This document shows positions 53,096 to 60,093 of a stretch of 64,000 bases of DNA, one piece after another. The position numbers and the translations under genes were made by a program. Within the stretch, counting starts at the first letter, position 1. The number at the start of each line of letters is the position of its first letter. Source of the DNA: Polyangiaceae bacterium (GTDB lineage Bacteria > Myxococcota_A > Polyangia > Polyangiales > Polyangiaceae); the NCBI GenBank assembly GCA_020846005.1, contig JADLEQ010000107.1:62001-126000 (forward strand), given 5' to 3'. Below the pieces are notes generated by a model, which did no database searches, was not told the origin of the DNA, and saw only the letters and a program-made list of their open reading frames with translations.

Positions 53096-55078
53096 TCAGG
53101 GAAGATACAACGAGAACCGCGCCCCGCGCCCCACCTCGCCCTCGGCGAGGACGAGGCCGCCGTGTCGCCGCACCACCCGCGCGACCGTCGCCAGGCCGAT
53201 CCCGCTCCCCTCCAGCACGGACGACGCGTGGAGCCGCTGGAACGGCTCGAACGCCTGCCCCGCCCAGCGGGGGTCGAAGCCCATCCCGTTGTCCTCCACG
53301 ACGAGCCAGCGCTGGCCGTCCCGCTCGCGCGAGCCCAGGTGAACTCGGGGCGCGGGCGCGTCGACCGTGTACTTCCAGGCGTTGGAGAGCAGGTTCATCA
53401 GCGCCACGCGGAGCAGCCCCGCGTCCGCCCGCGCGCGGAGCCCCGGCTCGATCTCCAGCTGGACCTCCCGGGCAGGCGCTGCCGCGGCGAGCTCGGCGCC
53501 GAGCTCGCGCGCGAGCGAGCTCACGTCGACATCCTCGAGCGTGAGCTCACGCCGCGAGAGCCGGGCGAGCGTGAGCAAGTCCTCGATGAGCCGCCCCATC
53601 CGAGCGCCCGCAGCCTGGATCCGCCCGAGGAGCTCGACGCCGTCTGGAGGGAGCCGGGCGCCGTGGTCCTCGGCGAGCGCCTGCGCGAACCCCGTGACGG
53701 CCCGGAGTGGCGCGCGCAGATCGTGCGACACGGCGTAGCTGAACGACTCCAACTCCGCGCGGCTCGCGGCCAGGGCAGCGGTGCGCTCGACCACGCGCCG
53801 CTCGAGCTCCTCGGCGAGCGCGCGCGTGGCGGCGTCCGCGCGCTCGCGCTCGAGCTCCGCCGCGAGGCGCGTGGCGAACAGGTCCATCACCGTGGTCGTC
53901 TCGACCGCCGTGCGGAGGGGGCGTTCGTGGAACACCGCGAGGACGCCGAGCGCCTGCCCGCCCGTCCCCGCGAGCCGAACGCCGGAGAACGACTCGGCGC
54001 CACAGGGCGCCAGCAACGGGTCGTCCGGGAATCGCAGCGCGGCTCCCGTGGCCAGCCGGCAGGCGCCCGCCGCGAGCACCTCCGCGCACGCCGAGCCCGC
54101 GAGCGAGATCTCTCGAGCCTCGAGGGGGCGCCCTCCGTCGATCAGCGCACGCACCTCCGCGCGCGATCCATCGACGGACACGCTCGCCGCCACCGCCCAC
54201 CGCGCGCCGGCCAGCGACGCGAGCTCTCGCGCCAGCGCGACGAACGGCCCCTCGGGCGGCGCACCGGCGGCGACGCGGAGCGCCCGCTCGATCCGGGCGG
54301 TGGCGGTGACATCGACGTCCATGCAGACGTAGCGCCGTGCGTCCCCGGCTCCGGGGATCCCGAACACCGTGGAGAACGCCAGCACCTCGCCGCCCTCGCG
54401 GTGCTGGACGGGGTAGACGCCGGGGCCCACCGGGGCATGGGTCTGCTCGACGGCCTCGATCGACTCGAGCAGGTCCTCGAAGCCGCGCGCCGCCAGGAAG
54501 GTCTCTCGAGCGGAGCGCCCTTCGGTCTCCGCCGCCGTCCACCCGAACATGCGCGTCGAGGCGTCGTTCCACAGCACGATGGTGCCGTCGCGCTCGTAGA
54601 CTTGCACCGCGACGTTCGGCGTGTGTTGCACGACCGCTGCGAAGGCGGCCTCGGCACGCCGCTGCGGCGTCACGTCGGTACCCGTGCCGATCACCAGATC
54701 GACGCTGCCGTCCGCGGCGACCGTGCAGGTGTTGCTCCACGCGATGGTGATCCGGCTGCCGTCGCGCCGGAGCCAGTCGTTCTCGTGGCGGTTGGGGAAC
54801 GCGCCTGCGCTCAACGCCTCGAACACCGCCTCGACCCCGGGGCGCTGCTCGGGCGGCACGAAGACGGACATGAAGCGCTGCCCGATCAGCTCGGCCTCCG
54901 TCCAGCCCGTGGCTCGCTCACACGTGTCGTTGAAGCGCACGATGCGGCCGTGCCGGTCGAGCACGACGACGAACGCGCCGACCGCCGCGAGCACGGCCTC
55001 CGCCAGCGCGGCGGGATCGGGGGGGGGGACCGGCTGAATCGCCGCGTCAGGTGGGGGTGAAGCGGGCGAGGACGGCAT
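53096..55078 (-). CDS. PAS-PAS-GAF sensor histidine kinase
   Basis: 660 residues. PAS at about 20-140 (VVVLDRHGRIVRFNDTCERATGWTEAEL), a second PAS at about 145-265 (QVYERDGTIVLWNDASTRMFGW), a GAF-like domain at about 275-420 and a helical linker. The kinase has HisKA with FSYAVSHDLRAPLRAVTG (His near 450), then LLSNAWKYT (N box), VEDNGMGFDPRWAGQAFEPFQRLH (G1/F boxes) and GSGIGLATVARVVRRHGG (G2). The kinase half is close to bacteriophytochrome/Rcp1-type kinases. No membrane helix, so it should be a soluble sensor. No chromophore Cys was found in the GAF. Its start overlaps the end of the hybrid kinase gene by 32 bp. Confidence 0.93.
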   Translation of the reverse strand: MPSSPASPPPDAAIQPVPPPDPAALAEAVLAAVGAFVVVLDRHGRIVRFNDTCERATGWTEAELIGQRFMSVFVPPEQRPGVEAVFEALSAGAFPNRHENDWLRRDGSRITIAWSNTCTVAADGSVDLVIGTGTDVTPQRRAEAAFAAVVQHTPNVAVQVYERDGTIVLWNDASTRMFGWTAAETEGRSARETFLAARGFEDLLESIEAVEQTHAPVGPGVYPVQHREGGEVLAFSTVFGIPGAGDARRYVCMDVDVTATARIERALRVAAGAPPEGPFVALARELASLAGARWAVAASVSVDGSRAEVRALIDGGRPLEAREISLAGSACAEVLAAGACRLATGAALRFPDDPLLAPCGAESFSGVRLAGTGGQALGVLAVFHERPLRTAVETTTVMDLFATRLAAELERERADAATRALAEELERRVVERTAALAASRAELESFSYAVSHDLRAPLRAVTGFAQALAEDHGARLPPDGVELLGRIQAAGARMGRLIEDLLTLARLSRRELTLEDVDVSSLARELGAELAAAAPAREVQLEIEPGLRARADAGLLRVALMNLLSNAWKYTVDAPAPRVHLGSRERDGQRWLVVEDNGMGFDPRWAGQAFEPFQRLHASSVLEGSGIGLATVARVVRRHGGLVLAEGEVGRGARFSLYLP

Positions 55079-56942
55079 GGAGTTGCTCGCTGGTGAAGGG
55101 CTTGAACAGCACCCGCTCGGGGGGCAGCGCCTCGAGGAACTGCTCGGCCTCCCGCGTGACCGCGCCGCCGGACATGACGACGAGGCGGTCGTGCGCGCGG
55201 GGGAACCGGGCCTCGACCTGGTGGTGGAAATCGGCGCCGGACATGCCGGGCATCATGAGATCGCAGAGGAGCACGTCGAAGTCGCGGCCCTCCTCCAGGA
55301 GCGCGAGCCCCTCCGCCGCGCCCGGCACCGCCGTCACGTCGTGGCGCCGGAGCAGCCGCCTCGTGACGCTCCGCAGCATGGGCTCGTCGTCGATGACGAG
55401 GACGCGCAGCGTGGAGCCCTGCGCGGCGGGGGGCAGGCGGACGGGGACGGACGAGGGCGGCGACGTGACCGCGAGCGGCCACCGCACCGTGAACGCCGTG
55501 CCCTCGCCCAACCGCGACTCCACCTCGATCGTGCCGCCCGCGCGCTCGACCAGGTCGCGGCAAACGGAGAGGCCGAGCCCCGTTCCCACGCCCGGAGGCT
55601 TCGTCGTGAAGAACGGCGCGAAGATCCGCGGGAGCACCTCCTCCGGGATGCCGGCGCCGTTGTCCGTGACGCGCACGACGGCGCGGTCGCCCTCCTCGCG
55701 TCCAGCTACGGCGACGCGGTTGGCGGCGGCCCGCCGGCGAGGCATCGCCTGCACGGCGTTGATCACGAGGTTGGTGAGCACCTGCGCCACTCGCGCCGCG
55801 GGCACGCCGACGACGAGACCCGGGCGCACGTCGTGCTGGATGGCGGCCGCGTGCTTGAGGTCGACACCCAAGAGCGCGATCACGGAGCCGACCACCTCGG
55901 CGAGGTCGCACTGGCCTGCTGTCTCCTCGGCCTGGGAGAACACCTTGAGGTCCCGCACCACGGCCGCGATGCGCTGCGTCGCCGCGACGCACTCGACCAG
56001 CGAAGGCACCAGATCGGGATCCGGAGGCGCCCAACGGTGCGCAGCCTCCAGCACCATGGGCAGCGACGCCACGAGGTGCGTCAGCGGGTTGTTGATCTCG
56101 TGGGCGACCCCCGCGGCGATCGTCCCCATCGCGACGAGGCGATCCGACTGCCGCACGCTCGCCTCGAGCTGGCGCCGCTCCGTCTCGTCGTGCACGATCC
56201 CCGTGAGGCGCTGGATCCTCCCGCCACGCCGCTCCACGCGCGCGATCACGCGCACGAGCAGGTCGCGCCCTCCGAAGCTCGTGACGCGGACATCGGAGAG
56301 ATCGAGGGAGTCCGCCTCGCCGGCGAGCGCGCCAATGAACCGCTCGAGCTGACCCGGCGCGAGCCGCTCGCGGAGCACGTCCACGGACCACGGCTGGCCG
56401 TCCGGTGCGTCGAGGAGTCGCTGGGCGCCCTCCGTACAGAACAGCTCGCTCGGCCGCCTGCGCCACTCCCACCCCCCGGTGCGGGTGATCGCCTGCGTCT
56501 GCAGCAGCACCTGGGCGCTCCGTCGCTCCGAGCGCCGCACCTGGGACTCGCCGAGCTCTCGCTCCACCGCCGCGGCGAGACGGGTGAGGGCGTTCTTCAG
56601 GACGAAGTCGCGCGCGCCGCGCCGCATCAGCTCCGTCGCGACCTCCTCGCCGACGGTTCCGCTCACGACGATCACCGGCAGATCGGGGTCTCGCGAAGCA
56701 ACGATCTCCAGGACGTCGAGCGCGGTGAACCCGGGGAGGCGAAAGTCGGTCACGACGAGGTCGTGTGCGCCCTCCTCCACCTCACGCTCGACGTCGGCGA
56801 GCGTGTCGACACGGCAGGGGACGACGCCCAGCCCATCGCGCTCGAGCTGCCGGAGCACGAGCGCCGAGTCGTCGGGCGAGTCCTCGACGAAGAGGATGCG
56901 GGTGGGGCTTCGCACGGGCCGGGGAGGATAGGCCTCGCTCAT
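55047..56942 (-). CDS. Hybrid REC-PAS-histidine kinase-REC protein
   Basis: 631 residues from ATG 56942. An N-terminal receiver (ILFVEDSPDDSALVLRQLERDG, then VVTDFRLPG) at about 15-130 lies before a PAS-like region (about 150-250). HisKA follows with LVAMGTIAAGVAHEINNPLTHLVASLP (His near 278), then NLVINAVQAMP, VTDNGAGIPEEVLPRIFAPFFTTK and GTGLGLSVCRDLVERAGG. A second receiver ends the protein (VLVIDDEPMLRSVTRR, LLCDLMMPGMS, LFKPF). Receiver domains at both ends suggest that it receives and passes phosphate within a relay. With the two genes downstream it forms a same-strand signalling block; input signal unknown. Alternative start codons upstream are in low-quality frame. Confidence 0.93.
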   Translation of the reverse strand: MSEAYPPRPVRSPTRILFVEDSPDDSALVLRQLERDGLGVVPCRVDTLADVEREVEEGAHDLVVTDFRLPGFTALDVLEIVASRDPDLPVIVVSGTVGEEVATELMRRGARDFVLKNALTRLAAAVERELGESQVRRSERRSAQVLLQTQAITRTGGWEWRRRPSELFCTEGAQRLLDAPDGQPWSVDVLRERLAPGQLERFIGALAGEADSLDLSDVRVTSFGGRDLLVRVIARVERRGGRIQRLTGIVHDETERRQLEASVRQSDRLVAMGTIAAGVAHEINNPLTHLVASLPMVLEAAHRWAPPDPDLVPSLVECVAATQRIAAVVRDLKVFSQAEETAGQCDLAEVVGSVIALLGVDLKHAAAIQHDVRPGLVVGVPAARVAQVLTNLVINAVQAMPRRRAAANRVAVAGREEGDRAVVRVTDNGAGIPEEVLPRIFAPFFTTKPPGVGTGLGLSVCRDLVERAGGTIEVESRLGEGTAFTVRWPLAVTSPPSSVPVRLPPAAQGSTLRVLVIDDEPMLRSVTRRLLRRHDVTAVPGAAEGLALLEEGRDFDVLLCDLMMPGMSGADFHHQVEARFPRAHDRLVVMSGGAVTREAEQFLEALPPERVLFKPFTSEQLHAVLARFTPT

Positions 56943-57093
56943 CGTCCCCGCGATGGGGAGCGCGGCGCGAGCAAGATGCCTGGGTGTTGGGGGCGCGTCC
57001 TGCCCTTGGACGCGGCTGCCCGCGCACGCCGGCCGCGCGGGCGGGCGCCGGGCGCGGCGCAGCTCGCGTGGCGCGGCGCGAGGGCCCCCCGCC

Positions 57094-57633
57094 TCAGCGC
57101 GCCGCTGCCCCGAGGTCGCTGAGCCAGCCCTCGAGCCGCCTCCGACTCGGCGCTCCCGTGGAGGTGTGGCGCACGTTGCCCGCCTCGTCGACGACGATGA
57201 ACGTCGGCAGCACCTCGACCTGGTACGCAGCGATGAATTGTCGATCGGCGTGCACCGTGTCGAATGGAGTCCGCCGCGCGACCTCGACCGCGGCCTCCCG
57301 GTCGTCGTCGATGCTGACGGCGAGGAAGCGCACGGGCCGCGCGCGCTGCGCGTGGTGAGCGTCGCGCACGACCGGCGCCGCCTGTTTGCACGCGCCACAC
57401 CAGCTCGCCATCACCTCGATCACGACGGGTGTCCCGCGGTGCTCGGAGAGGCGAAACGCGCCCCCCTCGCCGTTCAGGCGCGGGAGCGCGAATTCGGGCG
57501 CCGGGCGACCGTCGGGCAGGCTCGACGCGCGGCGGCCGAGGATCGTGGCCACCGCGATCACCGCGAGCGCGATCGCCGCGATCGTCCTCGCGATGGAGCC
57601 TGGGCTCGGACCCGCGGCGGGCTCGGCGCTCAC
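57094..57633 (-). CDS. Membrane-anchored thioredoxin-like protein (TlpA/ResA type)
   Basis: 179 residues, GTG overlapping the stop of the NrsF-like gene (GTGA). N-terminal helix IARTIAAIALAVIAVATILG anchors it, with the domain in the periplasm. Active site WCGACK in MASWCGACKQAAPVV and cis-Pro in VLPTFIVVDEAG are intact. It fits the ResA/TlpA group, periplasmic oxidoreductases that handle thiol-disulfide exchange or report redox state. Genetic coupling to an ECF sigma factor and its membrane anti-sigma protein suggests a role in an envelope redox response. Other TlpA roles, e.g. cytochrome maturation, remain possible. Confidence 0.92.
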   Translation of the reverse strand: MSAEPAAGPSPGSIARTIAAIALAVIAVATILGRRASSLPDGRPAPEFALPRLNGEGGAFRLSEHRGTPVVIEVMASWCGACKQAAPVVRDAHHAQRARPVRFLAVSIDDDREAAVEVARRTPFDTVHADRQFIAAYQVEVLPTFIVVDEAGNVRHTSTGAPSRRRLEGWLSDLGAAAR

Positions 57634-58328
57634 GGGGCGAGCGCCCTACGCCCTACCAGCCACCCCGCGGCGCTCAACAACGCGACGAGCGTGCCGTGCG
57701 ACAGCAAGAGGTGCCAGGCGTCGTGCGTGGGGCACACCGCCCCGACGGCGAGCGCTCCGACCAGGCCGCCCGCGAGGCCGACAAGGGCCCCGGAGAGGCC
57801 CGGCGAGAAGGGATCCGTGCGGCGCCACACCAGCATCATCGCTGCGGTGAGGAACGCGCTGATCACGATCGCGTGGAGCCCGCAGTCGGCGGCGCGCGCC
57901 TGGTGCTCCGCACCGAAGCTCGCGAGCGGGATCCACTCGTCGGCGATCAGCATCAGGTACACCGCGAACGACGCCGGGAGGACTCCGAGGAGCGCGAAGC
58001 GGCCCCACCGAGACGCCCGATGACCGACCGGCGCCCACAGCCCGACGACGAGCACGATCCCGACGACCGACATCCACCCAGCCAGCCCCGCGAGGCCGGC
58101 GCCCGCCAGGCCCCCGGGACGCATGCCGCCGCCGACCAGCACCAGCGCGCCGATCGTCACTGCTCCGATCGCCAGGCTGCGCACCAGCCGCTGCGTCGCC
58201 GTCAGGCACCGCCTGCCCTTGCCGAGGCCGGCCGCGCACTCGCCCCGGATCGCCGCGGAGAGCGCCGCCGGGGGCTCGACCCCGCCCGGCCACTCGGCGC
58301 GCTCGAGGAGGTCGTCCGGCTGGGTCAT
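57630..58328 (-). CDS. NrsF-like (DUF1109) membrane anti-sigma factor
   Basis: 232 residues. Hydrophilic N-terminal ~50 residues, then about six helices. The C-terminal pattern TDPFSPGLSGALVGLAGGLVGALAVGAVCPTHDAWHLLLSHGTLVALLSAAGWLV is close to DUF1109/NrsF proteins, which hold ECF sigma factors at the inner membrane. Cys residues lie in the N-terminal and membrane parts (GECAAG, GRRCLTA, ADCGLH, AVCPTH). In Caulobacter NrsF, Cys are reported to be needed for response to metals. The ATG overlaps the sigma factor stop (ATGA) and the stop overlaps the thioredoxin start, so all three genes are coupled. The family call is good but not certain. Confidence 0.82.
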   Translation of the reverse strand: MTQPDDLLERAEWPGGVEPPAALSAAIRGECAAGLGKGRRCLTATQRLVRSLAIGAVTIGALVLVGGGMRPGGLAGAGLAGLAGWMSVVGIVLVVGLWAPVGHRASRWGRFALLGVLPASFAVYLMLIADEWIPLASFGAEHQARAADCGLHAIVISAFLTAAMMLVWRRTDPFSPGLSGALVGLAGGLVGALAVGAVCPTHDAWHLLLSHGTLVALLSAAGWLVGRRALAP

Positions 58329-58972
58329 TCCGAGAATCTCCTGAAGCGAGCGAGCTGCTTGCGCAAGATCTCGTAGCCTCGAAACACCCTGAGCTTGACC
58401 GCCGTGCCCGTCGTCCCCAGCACCTCCGCGGCCTCGGCCACCGAGAGCCCGTTGATCTTCGTCAATTCGATCGCCTCCCGATAGCTCACGGGGAGGTCGA
58501 GCAGAGCTCGATCGAGCGCCTCTGAGAGGTCCGCGCCGACCGCCTCGGGCTCCGCTCGGGGCTCGGGCAGCGATCCGTCGTCGCTCAGGTGCTCGGTGCG
58601 GACCTTGGCCGCGCGCCGCTCGTCGAGGAAGGACCGTCGCGCGATGGCGAGCATCCAGGGGAGGACGGGCGCCCCTCGCAGGTAGCTCGCGCGGGCGCGG
58701 TGGATCTTCGAGAAGGTGACCTGCAAGAGATCCTCGGCGCGAGCCCGGTCGCGAGTCAGGCGCAGCAGGTAGCCGAACAGCCGGGGTGCGGTGCAGGCGT
58801 ACAGCGCGTCGAACGCCGCCGGGTCGCCCTCTACGTATCGGACCATGAGCGACTCGGGCGCCAGCGCGCCGAGCCCTGCGTCGGCGGTCGCCGCGCCGCC
58901 AGCCAATCCGTCCGCGGAGGCACCCACGGCCACGATGGCTAGCGGCGAAGCGCCCTGAGGGCCAGGGGGCAC
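58325..58972 (-). CDS. ECF RNA polymerase sigma factor
   Basis: Up to 215 residues (GTG 58972; ATG 58847 gives about 174). Sigma-2: MVRYVEGDPAAFDALYACTAPRLFGYLLRLTRDRARAEDLLQVTF, typical of ECF group sigma factors, then SKIHRARASY and PWMLAIARRSFLDERR. Sigma-4: LDLPVSYREAIELTKINGLSVAEAAEVLGTTGTAVKLRVFRGY with the recognition helix. The first ~45 residues are Ala/Gly-rich, so the shorter start at 58847 is quite possible. It is coupled to the NrsF-like anti-sigma gene (ATGA) and reads away from the 112-bp gap that separates it from the OmpA-type lipoprotein gene. Confidence 0.92.
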   Translation of the reverse strand: MPPGPQGASPLAIVAVGASADGLAGGAATADAGLGALAPESLMVRYVEGDPAAFDALYACTAPRLFGYLLRLTRDRARAEDLLQVTFSKIHRARASYLRGAPVLPWMLAIARRSFLDERRAAKVRTEHLSDDGSLPEPRAEPEAVGADLSEALDRALLDLPVSYREAIELTKINGLSVAEAAEVLGTTGTAVKLRVFRGYEILRKQLARFRRFSE

Positions 58973-59084
58973 AGGTGCGTCAGGTTACGGCGCGACGCGG
59001 CGGCCGGTTTCACCGTCACGTCACGGGTGGACCGCCCAGGGGGCGCGGGCTGCCGCGCCGTGGGATCGGGGCAGCGGGCGGCGA

Positions 59085-59936
59085 TCACTCGGAGAGCTTG
59101 CGGAGATCGAGCATCTCCTCCACGTCCGGCATCAGCACGAGCTCCACGCGCCGGTTCGACGTCCGCCCCTCGTCGGTGCCGTTGTCGGCGACCGGATCGG
59201 TCTCGCCGTAGCCAGCCGCGTGGAGCTTCTTCACGTCGAGGCCGCCGCCGCCCTCCTTGGCCTCGGGCGGCGAGGTGAGCCACACGAGCACGCCCCGCGC
59301 GCGCATCGCGGAGAGCCCCCAGTTGTCCTTGTACGGCCCCCCCTTGAGCGGGCGGTCGTCGGTGTGGCCGGCGATCTGGAAGTATCGGGCCGCGAGCTGG
59401 GTGTCGCTGCGAACGACGTCGGCGACGGCCTTGAGCACCTCCACGCCCTCCTTGCGGAGCTTGTCCGACCCGGAGTCGAAGAGCACGTCGCCGGGCAGAG
59501 AGATGACCATCCGGTTGTTGCGGATGCTCACCTTGAGCCCCATCTCGGTGAGCTTCTTGAGCTTCTCGCGGAGCTGCTCGAACCGCGCCTTGATGCGCTC
59601 GAGGACCTCGGCGCGCCGCTTGTACTCCTCGAGCGCCCGCTGGAGCTGGGTCTTCTCCTTGCCCTCGGCCTCGAGCTTCTGCTCGAGCGCCGCCACGTCG
59701 ACGCCCATCTTCTTCAGCTCGGCGATCAGCTCGCCGACGCGCTCCTCGGCGCGTTCGAGCTCCTCCTTCGTCTTCTCGAGCTCGGCGCGGGTCTTGCCGT
59801 GCGCGCCCTTCTCCGCGTCGTGCTGCTTGCGCAGCGCCTCGTACTTCGCGAGCTGGGCCTGCCACTCGTCTTCCGAGTAGCCGCACGAGGCGAGCGTGGG
59901 GAGCAGCAGGAGCGGGACGAGGCTTCGGACGCGCAC
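59085..59936 (-). CDS. Coiled-coil OmpA/MotB-type lipoprotein
   Basis: 283 residues from a GTG at 59936 with a GGAGG 6 bp upstream. Signal peptide with lipobox LASC (LLLLPTLASCGYSED). Then a long Lys/Glu coiled coil, about residues 25-140. The OmpA/MotB domain follows: NNRMVISLPGDVLFDSGSDKL, then AGHTDDRPLKGG and AMRARGVLVWL, ending with a GYGETDPVADNGTDEGRTSNRRVELVL block. OmpA-type domains bind peptidoglycan, so this probably links the outer membrane or a periplasmic assembly to the wall. The longer ORF from 59978 has no good ribosome-binding site. Confidence 0.93.
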   Translation of the reverse strand: MRVRSLVPLLLLPTLASCGYSEDEWQAQLAKYEALRKQHDAEKGAHGKTRAELEKTKEELERAEERVGELIAELKKMGVDVAALEQKLEAEGKEKTQLQRALEEYKRRAEVLERIKARFEQLREKLKKLTEMGLKVSIRNNRMVISLPGDVLFDSGSDKLRKEGVEVLKAVADVVRSDTQLAARYFQIAGHTDDRPLKGGPYKDNWGLSAMRARGVLVWLTSPPEAKEGGGGLDVKKLHAAGYGETDPVADNGTDEGRTSNRRVELVLMPDVEEMLDLRKLSE

Positions 59937-60093
59937 GGGGTACCTCCGGGGTGGGGCCGGCGCCCGCCGGCGCGTCATTCGTCGCGCACGCGGGGCGTGC
60001 GGTCAATCGCGAGCCGCGCCCGGCCGAATTCCCGGCCGCGCGACGCGAGGTCGGGCCGACACGCCCGCCGCGCCGAACACCGGCCACAAAGCG

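Follow-up and report, generated by a model that had tools for sequence, protein, structure and literature searches.

The locus lies in a 64,000-nucleotide stretch of a Polyangiaceae bacterium (the window) and consists of three minus-strand genes at 57094 to 58972, which follow one another without gaps in the order ECF sigma factor, NrsF, and thioredoxin (Table 1). The products of all three exceed the Pfam cut-offs, bearing out the identities that an earlier note on this DNA had assigned to them; the note had made its model depend on the membrane protein being a DUF1109 protein, and this match holds. The overlaps described there are also present in the sequence, each four bases long, with ATGA joining the sigma and NrsF genes and GTGA joining NrsF and the thioredoxin. 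The term "fused" that it used for the unit is apt as far as the genes overlap, but it is too strong for the products, which are separate proteins. Because the conserved core of the sigma factor does not begin until about residue 43, its true start may be internal to the frame given here. No second NrsF match was found in this genome, and neither terminators nor sigma-70 promoters were detected in 56850 to 59200.

Table 1. Positions of the genes, overlaps, residues, and predicted promoter in the window
Feature	Positions	Strand	Details
ECF sigma factor	58325-58972	-	215 aa; PF04542 44.2 bits, PF08281 44.0 bits (Pfam)
NrsF/DUF1109-type anti-sigma factor, six predicted membrane helices	57630-58328	-	232 aa; PF06532 39.8 bits, cut-off 26.8
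Membrane-anchored ResA-like thioredoxin	57094-57633	-	179 aa; PF08534 62.5 bits, PF00578 59.1 bits
Sigma/NrsF overlap	58325-58328		ATGA
NrsF/thioredoxin overlap	57630-57633		GTGA
NrsF C149, outer end of predicted helix 4	57882-57884	-	C in 99/100 aligned family frames
NrsF C199, outer end of predicted helix 5	57732-57734	-	C in 100/100; 50 residues past C149
NrsF H206 to H211, near the start of predicted helix 6	57696-57713	-	H in 100/100 at both
NrsF C31, predicted cytoplasmic	58236-58238	-	15/18 thioredoxin-linked, 4/82 other NrsF
Thioredoxin active site CGAC, residues 79-82	57388-57399	-	WCxxC in 18/18
Predicted sigma-specific promoter	58986-59011	-	GAAACC-N16-CGTA (= GAAAC-N17-CGTA); the first GTG of sigma lies 13 bases downstream
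OmpA-domain lipoprotein gene	59085-59978	-	Upstream of sigma
Sensor/hybrid histidine kinase	53096-55078	-	Overlaps the next kinase
Sensor/hybrid histidine kinase	55047-56942	-	About 150 bases after the thioredoxin gene

Hydropathy and charge distribution predict that NrsF has six hydrophobic segments with positive-inside loops and an internal N terminus, an arrangement in which C149, C199, H206, and H211 lie at the periplasmic ends of helices 4 to 6 or close to them. These four residues are near-invariant among 100 aligned NrsF sequences of the family, with or without a thioredoxin, and the two cysteines answer the question raised in the earlier note as to which anti-sigma cysteines are conserved. 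The predicted structure (m6744ad8087f0) is helical, with a pLDDT of 78. Foldseek gave no match for this model at E 0.001 or better, and no solved NrsF relative was found by profile search. The likeness of the model to the zinc transporter ZnT1 (best VIA-align Z 7.1) was discounted and left unused, since helical bundles can be expected to give values of this size. A Paraburkholderia DUF1109 protein has no second cysteine and does not show the same H-x4-H spacing, so the histidine pair was rejected as a universal feature of DUF1109 proteins, and the four-residue site is claimed for the sampled family only. A profile comparison with this protein gave a probability of 0.25%. The available passages on the NrsF-type proteins of Caulobacter and Bradyrhizobium do not discuss the invariant histidines.

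Two further cysteines were considered as thiol partners and rejected. All four carriers of NrsF C31 that are not thioredoxin linked are thioredoxin-less members of the clade described below; on these grounds, and because the anchor charge mostly places the thioredoxin outside, we regard C31 as a clade trait rather than as a cytoplasmic partner of the thioredoxin. C60 of the sigma factor is present in 1/18 thioredoxin-linked rows and in 0/73 others. The predicted cytoplasmic N terminus of NrsF carries at least two cysteines in 8 of the 18 thioredoxin-linked loci (L001, L019, L046, L069, L070, L076, L082, and L089).

Like ResA, which serves cytochrome c maturation in Bacillus, the third protein has a thioredoxin fold with a CxxC motif, whereas its gene, unlike that of ResA, sits in a stress-sigma operon. 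ResA structures (3c71, 2h1b, and 1st9) are its best solved relatives in the PDB (E 6e-26 by profile); the cut-off of the ResA subfamily model, NCBIfam PRK03147, is missed (61.6 bits versus 170). Its N terminus contains a hydrophobic segment by hydropathy. The charge rule places the domain outside in 12 of the 18 NrsF-linked thioredoxins, with four ties and two opposite assignments, one of them being the protein studied here. The domain is likely to be periplasmic, because in 12/18 the anchor is N-in by charge. A DsbD_TM protein encoded in the same genome could supply electrons to it, and related thioredoxins are found elsewhere in the genomes of the family.

NrsF was detected in 71 of the 108 genomes that make up the family sample, whose members, where named, are MAGs of Polyangiaceae and Myxococcales, and 100 NrsF reading frames in 99 loci were read. 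In 18 loci from 18 different genomes, the present one included, NrsF is immediately followed by a thioredoxin gene in the same orientation, and the active-site WCxxC is found in every copy. The earlier note had treated absence of the thioredoxin from the operons of relatives as a reason to abandon its model; the gene is present in 17 genomes besides this one. A start permitting the 4-base overlap exists in 13/18 for sigma/NrsF and in 15/18 for NrsF/thioredoxin. The tree comprised 95 NrsF rows, frames outside 190 to 300 aa having been excluded from the 100 and L124 added; in it, all 18 thioredoxin-linked proteins fall into one clade of 25 (support 100/99), and the thioredoxin label requires 5 changes, compared with 16.8 when labels are shuffled. 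Seven of the 25 clade members have no adjacent thioredoxin, and a single gain followed by several losses would fit the tree. A search for the gene order across Myxococcota, as suggested in the earlier note, found the unit in this family only (377 phylum-sampled genomes); no clade-profile score above 100 bits was obtained outside the family among these and 183 genomes of the order, the best outside score being 67.6 bits. No description of an NrsF-thioredoxin operon was found in the openly accessible literature searched.

The gene upstream of sigma, coding for an OmpA-domain lipoprotein, occupies the same place in 14/14 other loci compared. Homologues occur in 22 of 25 other loci, a set that includes two same-genome pairs (L029/L137 and L050/L142), and the three loci with no match (L018, L039, and L074) are all thioredoxin-less. 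Three thioredoxin-less clade loci (L029, L050, and L061) retain it. This gene is possibly linked to envelope stress. Downstream, relatives often carry a TPR-like lipoprotein and, on the opposite strand, an acidic protein with a single predicted helix; in the window, a histidine kinase stands there instead. In L029, L050, and L061, the acidic gene comes immediately after NrsF. A different order is found in genome G028, where one contig carries the overlapping sigma and thioredoxin genes and another carries NrsF by itself (loci L146/L074); this may reflect either rearrangement of the operon or an artifact of assembly, and caution is needed because the MAG consists of 680 contigs with 8% estimated contamination.

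The predicted promoter before sigma is the single match to its motif in the window, where 0.02 would be expected. GAAAC-N17-CGTA stands upstream of sigma in 17/18 thioredoxin loci, in 20/23 clade loci with a sigma hit, and in 4/68 other NrsF loci, and the total is 25 matches in 1.28 million strand-bases. Three thioredoxin-less members of the clade keep it. The clade motif is distinct from the ECF16-type promoter, GTAAC-N-CGAA, and a 220-base region around the window promoter contains no GTAAC-N14-18-CG(A/T). From the comparison of loci, the sigma factor is likely to autoregulate its operon through GAAAC-N17-CGTA.

In relatives, genome-wide motif matches suggested three candidate targets: msrA, msrP, and an MNIO (DUF692) operon. 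With a spacer of 16 or 17, 15/30 clade loci carry the motif no more than 750 bp upstream of an MNIO gene, versus 3/30 loci of non-clade genomes (Fisher p 0.0015), the loci being 30 of 60 places in 25 clade genomes plus G024 and 30 of 62 places for comparison. The reversed control motif gave 0 in both sets, and the background estimate, 0.03 per region, sets an upper limit, since true sites are counted in. Counted by genome, 14 of the 23 MNIO-bearing clade genomes have the motif, ours and two genomes of thioredoxin-less members among them; in the other nine, the loci tested show none upstream. Downstream of the motif, 12 of the 14 loci scanned for it encode a precursor that begins with a signal-peptide-like segment and has at least 9 Cys, the remaining two having a 6-Cys frame and no such frame, respectively. 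The target in this genome, on contig C21 (L192), has the layout of a bufferin cluster (DUF692, 346.8 bits; DUF2063, 57.3 bits), and its precursor is an 84-aa, lipoprotein-like protein with 9 Cys, a signal-like N terminus, and no Pfam match. Such 9-Cys precursors beside MNIO enzymes, here and in relatives, share the pattern KxCCKGxNECKGKGGC...GGCNAHCPK.

Across the whole genome, GAAACY-N15/16-CGTA has 10 matches, compared with 1 for the reversed control, and clear promoter-like placing is seen at the sigma and MNIO operons only. The strict motif precedes msrA in 3/30 loci, which are all three g16 genomes, and msrP in 4/30, where it is well placed in one genome only (G021). No motif lies upstream of the msrBA gene of the present genome, which makes any link to Msr an indirect one in this case. 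Taken by comparison across genomes, the sigma factor of the operon probably turns on a metal-binding-peptide pathway, namely, bufferin-like copper chelation. A further match, at C19:32732 (L158), stands before an rpoH-like sigma frame; this placing was not seen in the other genomes and may be due to chance. Contig C79 (L221) encodes a possible lipoprotein MsrB-MsrA fusion without a thioredoxin domain.

The closest parallel is SigF-NrsF of Caulobacter, likewise an ECF sigma factor with a six-helix DUF1109 anti-sigma factor, whose cysteines are 50 residues apart (131/181 there and 149/199 here) and whose output is a DUF692-type operon, with a response to metals (PMC3511200, PMC8224329). The SigF regulon is reported to comprise DUF2282-DUF692-DUF2063-DoxX and a YedY/MsrP-type protein; it is copper induced, and the sigF mutant is copper sensitive. 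As described in the available text, however, the sigF operon contains no thioredoxin and has the bufferin genes beside it, whereas the Polyangiaceae operon has a coupled thioredoxin and its bufferin-like genes lie elsewhere in the genome (PMC3511200, PMC8224329). EcfF-OsrA of Bradyrhizobium has the same type of anti-sigma factor (C129/C179), in which the H2O2 response requires C179 and binding requires C129, and its regulon combines Msr enzymes with a membrane-anchored periplasmic thioredoxin, Bll1026; this thioredoxin and a DsbD-like partner are encoded together in another operon, and the promoter is of the GTAAC type (PMC3420878). The earlier note had regarded the thioredoxin as foreign to the known system, which agrees with the Caulobacter operon as reported but not with the EcfF-OsrA regulon. 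In both organisms, the matching cysteines are reported to control sigma release (PMC3511200, PMC8224329, PMC3420878). BcrS-AbcS of Brucella pairs an ECF16 sigma factor with an NrsF-family anti-sigma factor (C129/C179) and has an Msr output and a hypochlorite response; it differs in its GTAAC-type promoter, and no operon thioredoxin is reported in the text available (PMC8315932). Bufferin clusters share the secreted Cys-rich precursor, the MNIO (DUF692) enzyme, and the DUF2063 partner, and those of the Buf1 type can contain sigma and NrsF genes, whereas the Polyangiaceae cluster lies away from them and its lipoprotein-like precursor has no Pfam hit (PMC12452194). What is new in the NrsF family, judged from these sequences, is the distinct predicted promoter, the predicted output in trans, and the coupled thioredoxin.

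We therefore favor, with a probability of about 0.6, a myxobacterial envelope-stress switch of the SigF-NrsF type that is autoregulated, has a bufferin-type output, and co-induces a repair thioredoxin that is not needed for release. As in other members of the family, NrsF would hold the sigma factor at the inner membrane. Metal or oxidant stress would modify the periplasmic-side site formed by C149, C199, H206, and H211, as experiments in the family and the conservation of these residues suggest, and the freed sigma factor would transcribe its own operon and the MNIO/bufferin-like operon from GAAAC-N16/17-CGTA. By analogy with other organisms, copper may be the signal. The thioredoxin would be a third, translationally coupled gene gained by the switch, and its product most likely acts as a periplasmic reductant that repairs envelope thiols or feeds a periplasmic methionine sulfoxide reductase; it may also re-reduce NrsF and thereby end the response. 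For the periplasmic thioredoxin of the EcfF regulon, feeding of a periplasmic Msr was likewise put forward as a speculation (PMC3420878).

Alternative readings differ mainly in what the thioredoxin does. According to the earlier note, it exchanges thiols with NrsF and thereby triggers sigma release, a proposal that the coupling of the genes and the periplasmic-side cysteines had made attractive. We found no support for it. The thioredoxin-less clade members that were scored keep C149 and C199, three of them also keep the promoter, and two of their genomes keep the motif before the MNIO operon, indicating that the thioredoxin is not needed for release; moreover, the product of an autoregulated operon would be made mostly after the signal, not before it. 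NrsF family members are reported to free their sigma factors without an operon thioredoxin, and in Bradyrhizobium, C179 mediates H2O2 release with no thioredoxin gene described in the operon (PMC3420878). Release by the thioredoxin is thus very improbable, and a repair or reset role fits better. A light or singlet-oxygen switch like that of Myxococcus CarQ-CarR-CarS has still less in its favor. The likeness lies in three coupled myxobacterial genes with a six-helix DUF1109-type anti-sigma factor, CarR, which both copper and light-driven singlet oxygen inactivate; however, the third Car gene encodes the CarS antirepressor rather than a thioredoxin, the output is carotenoid rather than bufferin-like as predicted here, and CarR orthologues are reported in Cystobacterineae only, in the portions of the reviews available (PMC8156234, PMC9304148). 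We consider it far-fetched.

The main rival to a repair or Msr-feeding role, which we favor for the thioredoxin, is that it serves as the redox partner of NrsF, reducing a C149-C199 disulfide and so resetting the anti-sigma factor. The sigmaR-RsrA-thioredoxin system forms such a redox feedback loop in the cytoplasm, and the loop proposed here would be its periplasmic counterpart, with negative feedback of the same kind. The coupling of the gene to NrsF, for which the 4-base overlap is possible in 15/18, would be explained in this way, as would the position of both cysteines on the predicted periplasmic face and the confinement of the linkage to one NrsF clade. Against this, the clade members without an adjacent thioredoxin, where scored, keep the cysteines, and the G028 gene is coupled to sigma while NrsF is on another contig. 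The NrsF literature, in the parts available, reports no NrsF disulfide, and C129S and C179S of Bradyrhizobium behave differently, which does not suggest a simple pair (PMC3420878). Resetting of NrsF is therefore possible but on the unlikely side. The same holds for its fuller form, which we offer tentatively: a self-resetting, membrane-spanning switch in which the thioredoxin specifically reduces the Cys/His site, so that a copper or oxidant response would read the periplasmic thiol state and shut itself off. Alternatively, the thioredoxin might be a passenger, a general periplasmic TlpA/ResA-like protein with no tie to the response. Its absence from 7 of 25 clade members would agree with this, as would the position of the next conserved gene right after NrsF in L029, L050, and L061 and the presence of related thioredoxins elsewhere in these genomes; yet it has been retained in place in 18 genomes across the clade, the deepest branches included, and it stays beside sigma in G028 though NrsF is apart. 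We judge a mere passenger to be improbable.

How six-helix DUF1109 anti-sigma factors sense their signals is unsolved, as reviews state for CarR. The NrsF clade offers a natural experiment, with the same sensor present with and without a dedicated thioredoxin, and a small predicted regulon with an exact promoter. The comparison also yields a prediction of which sigma factor drives a set of myxobacterial MNIO/bufferin-like operons, and it draws attention to two invariant histidines of NrsF.

The two histidine kinase genes that follow the thioredoxin in the window overlap each other, and no terminator was detected before them. They were not found after the thioredoxin in the other clade loci compared, except that a kinase-like frame is present in L070 and L076.
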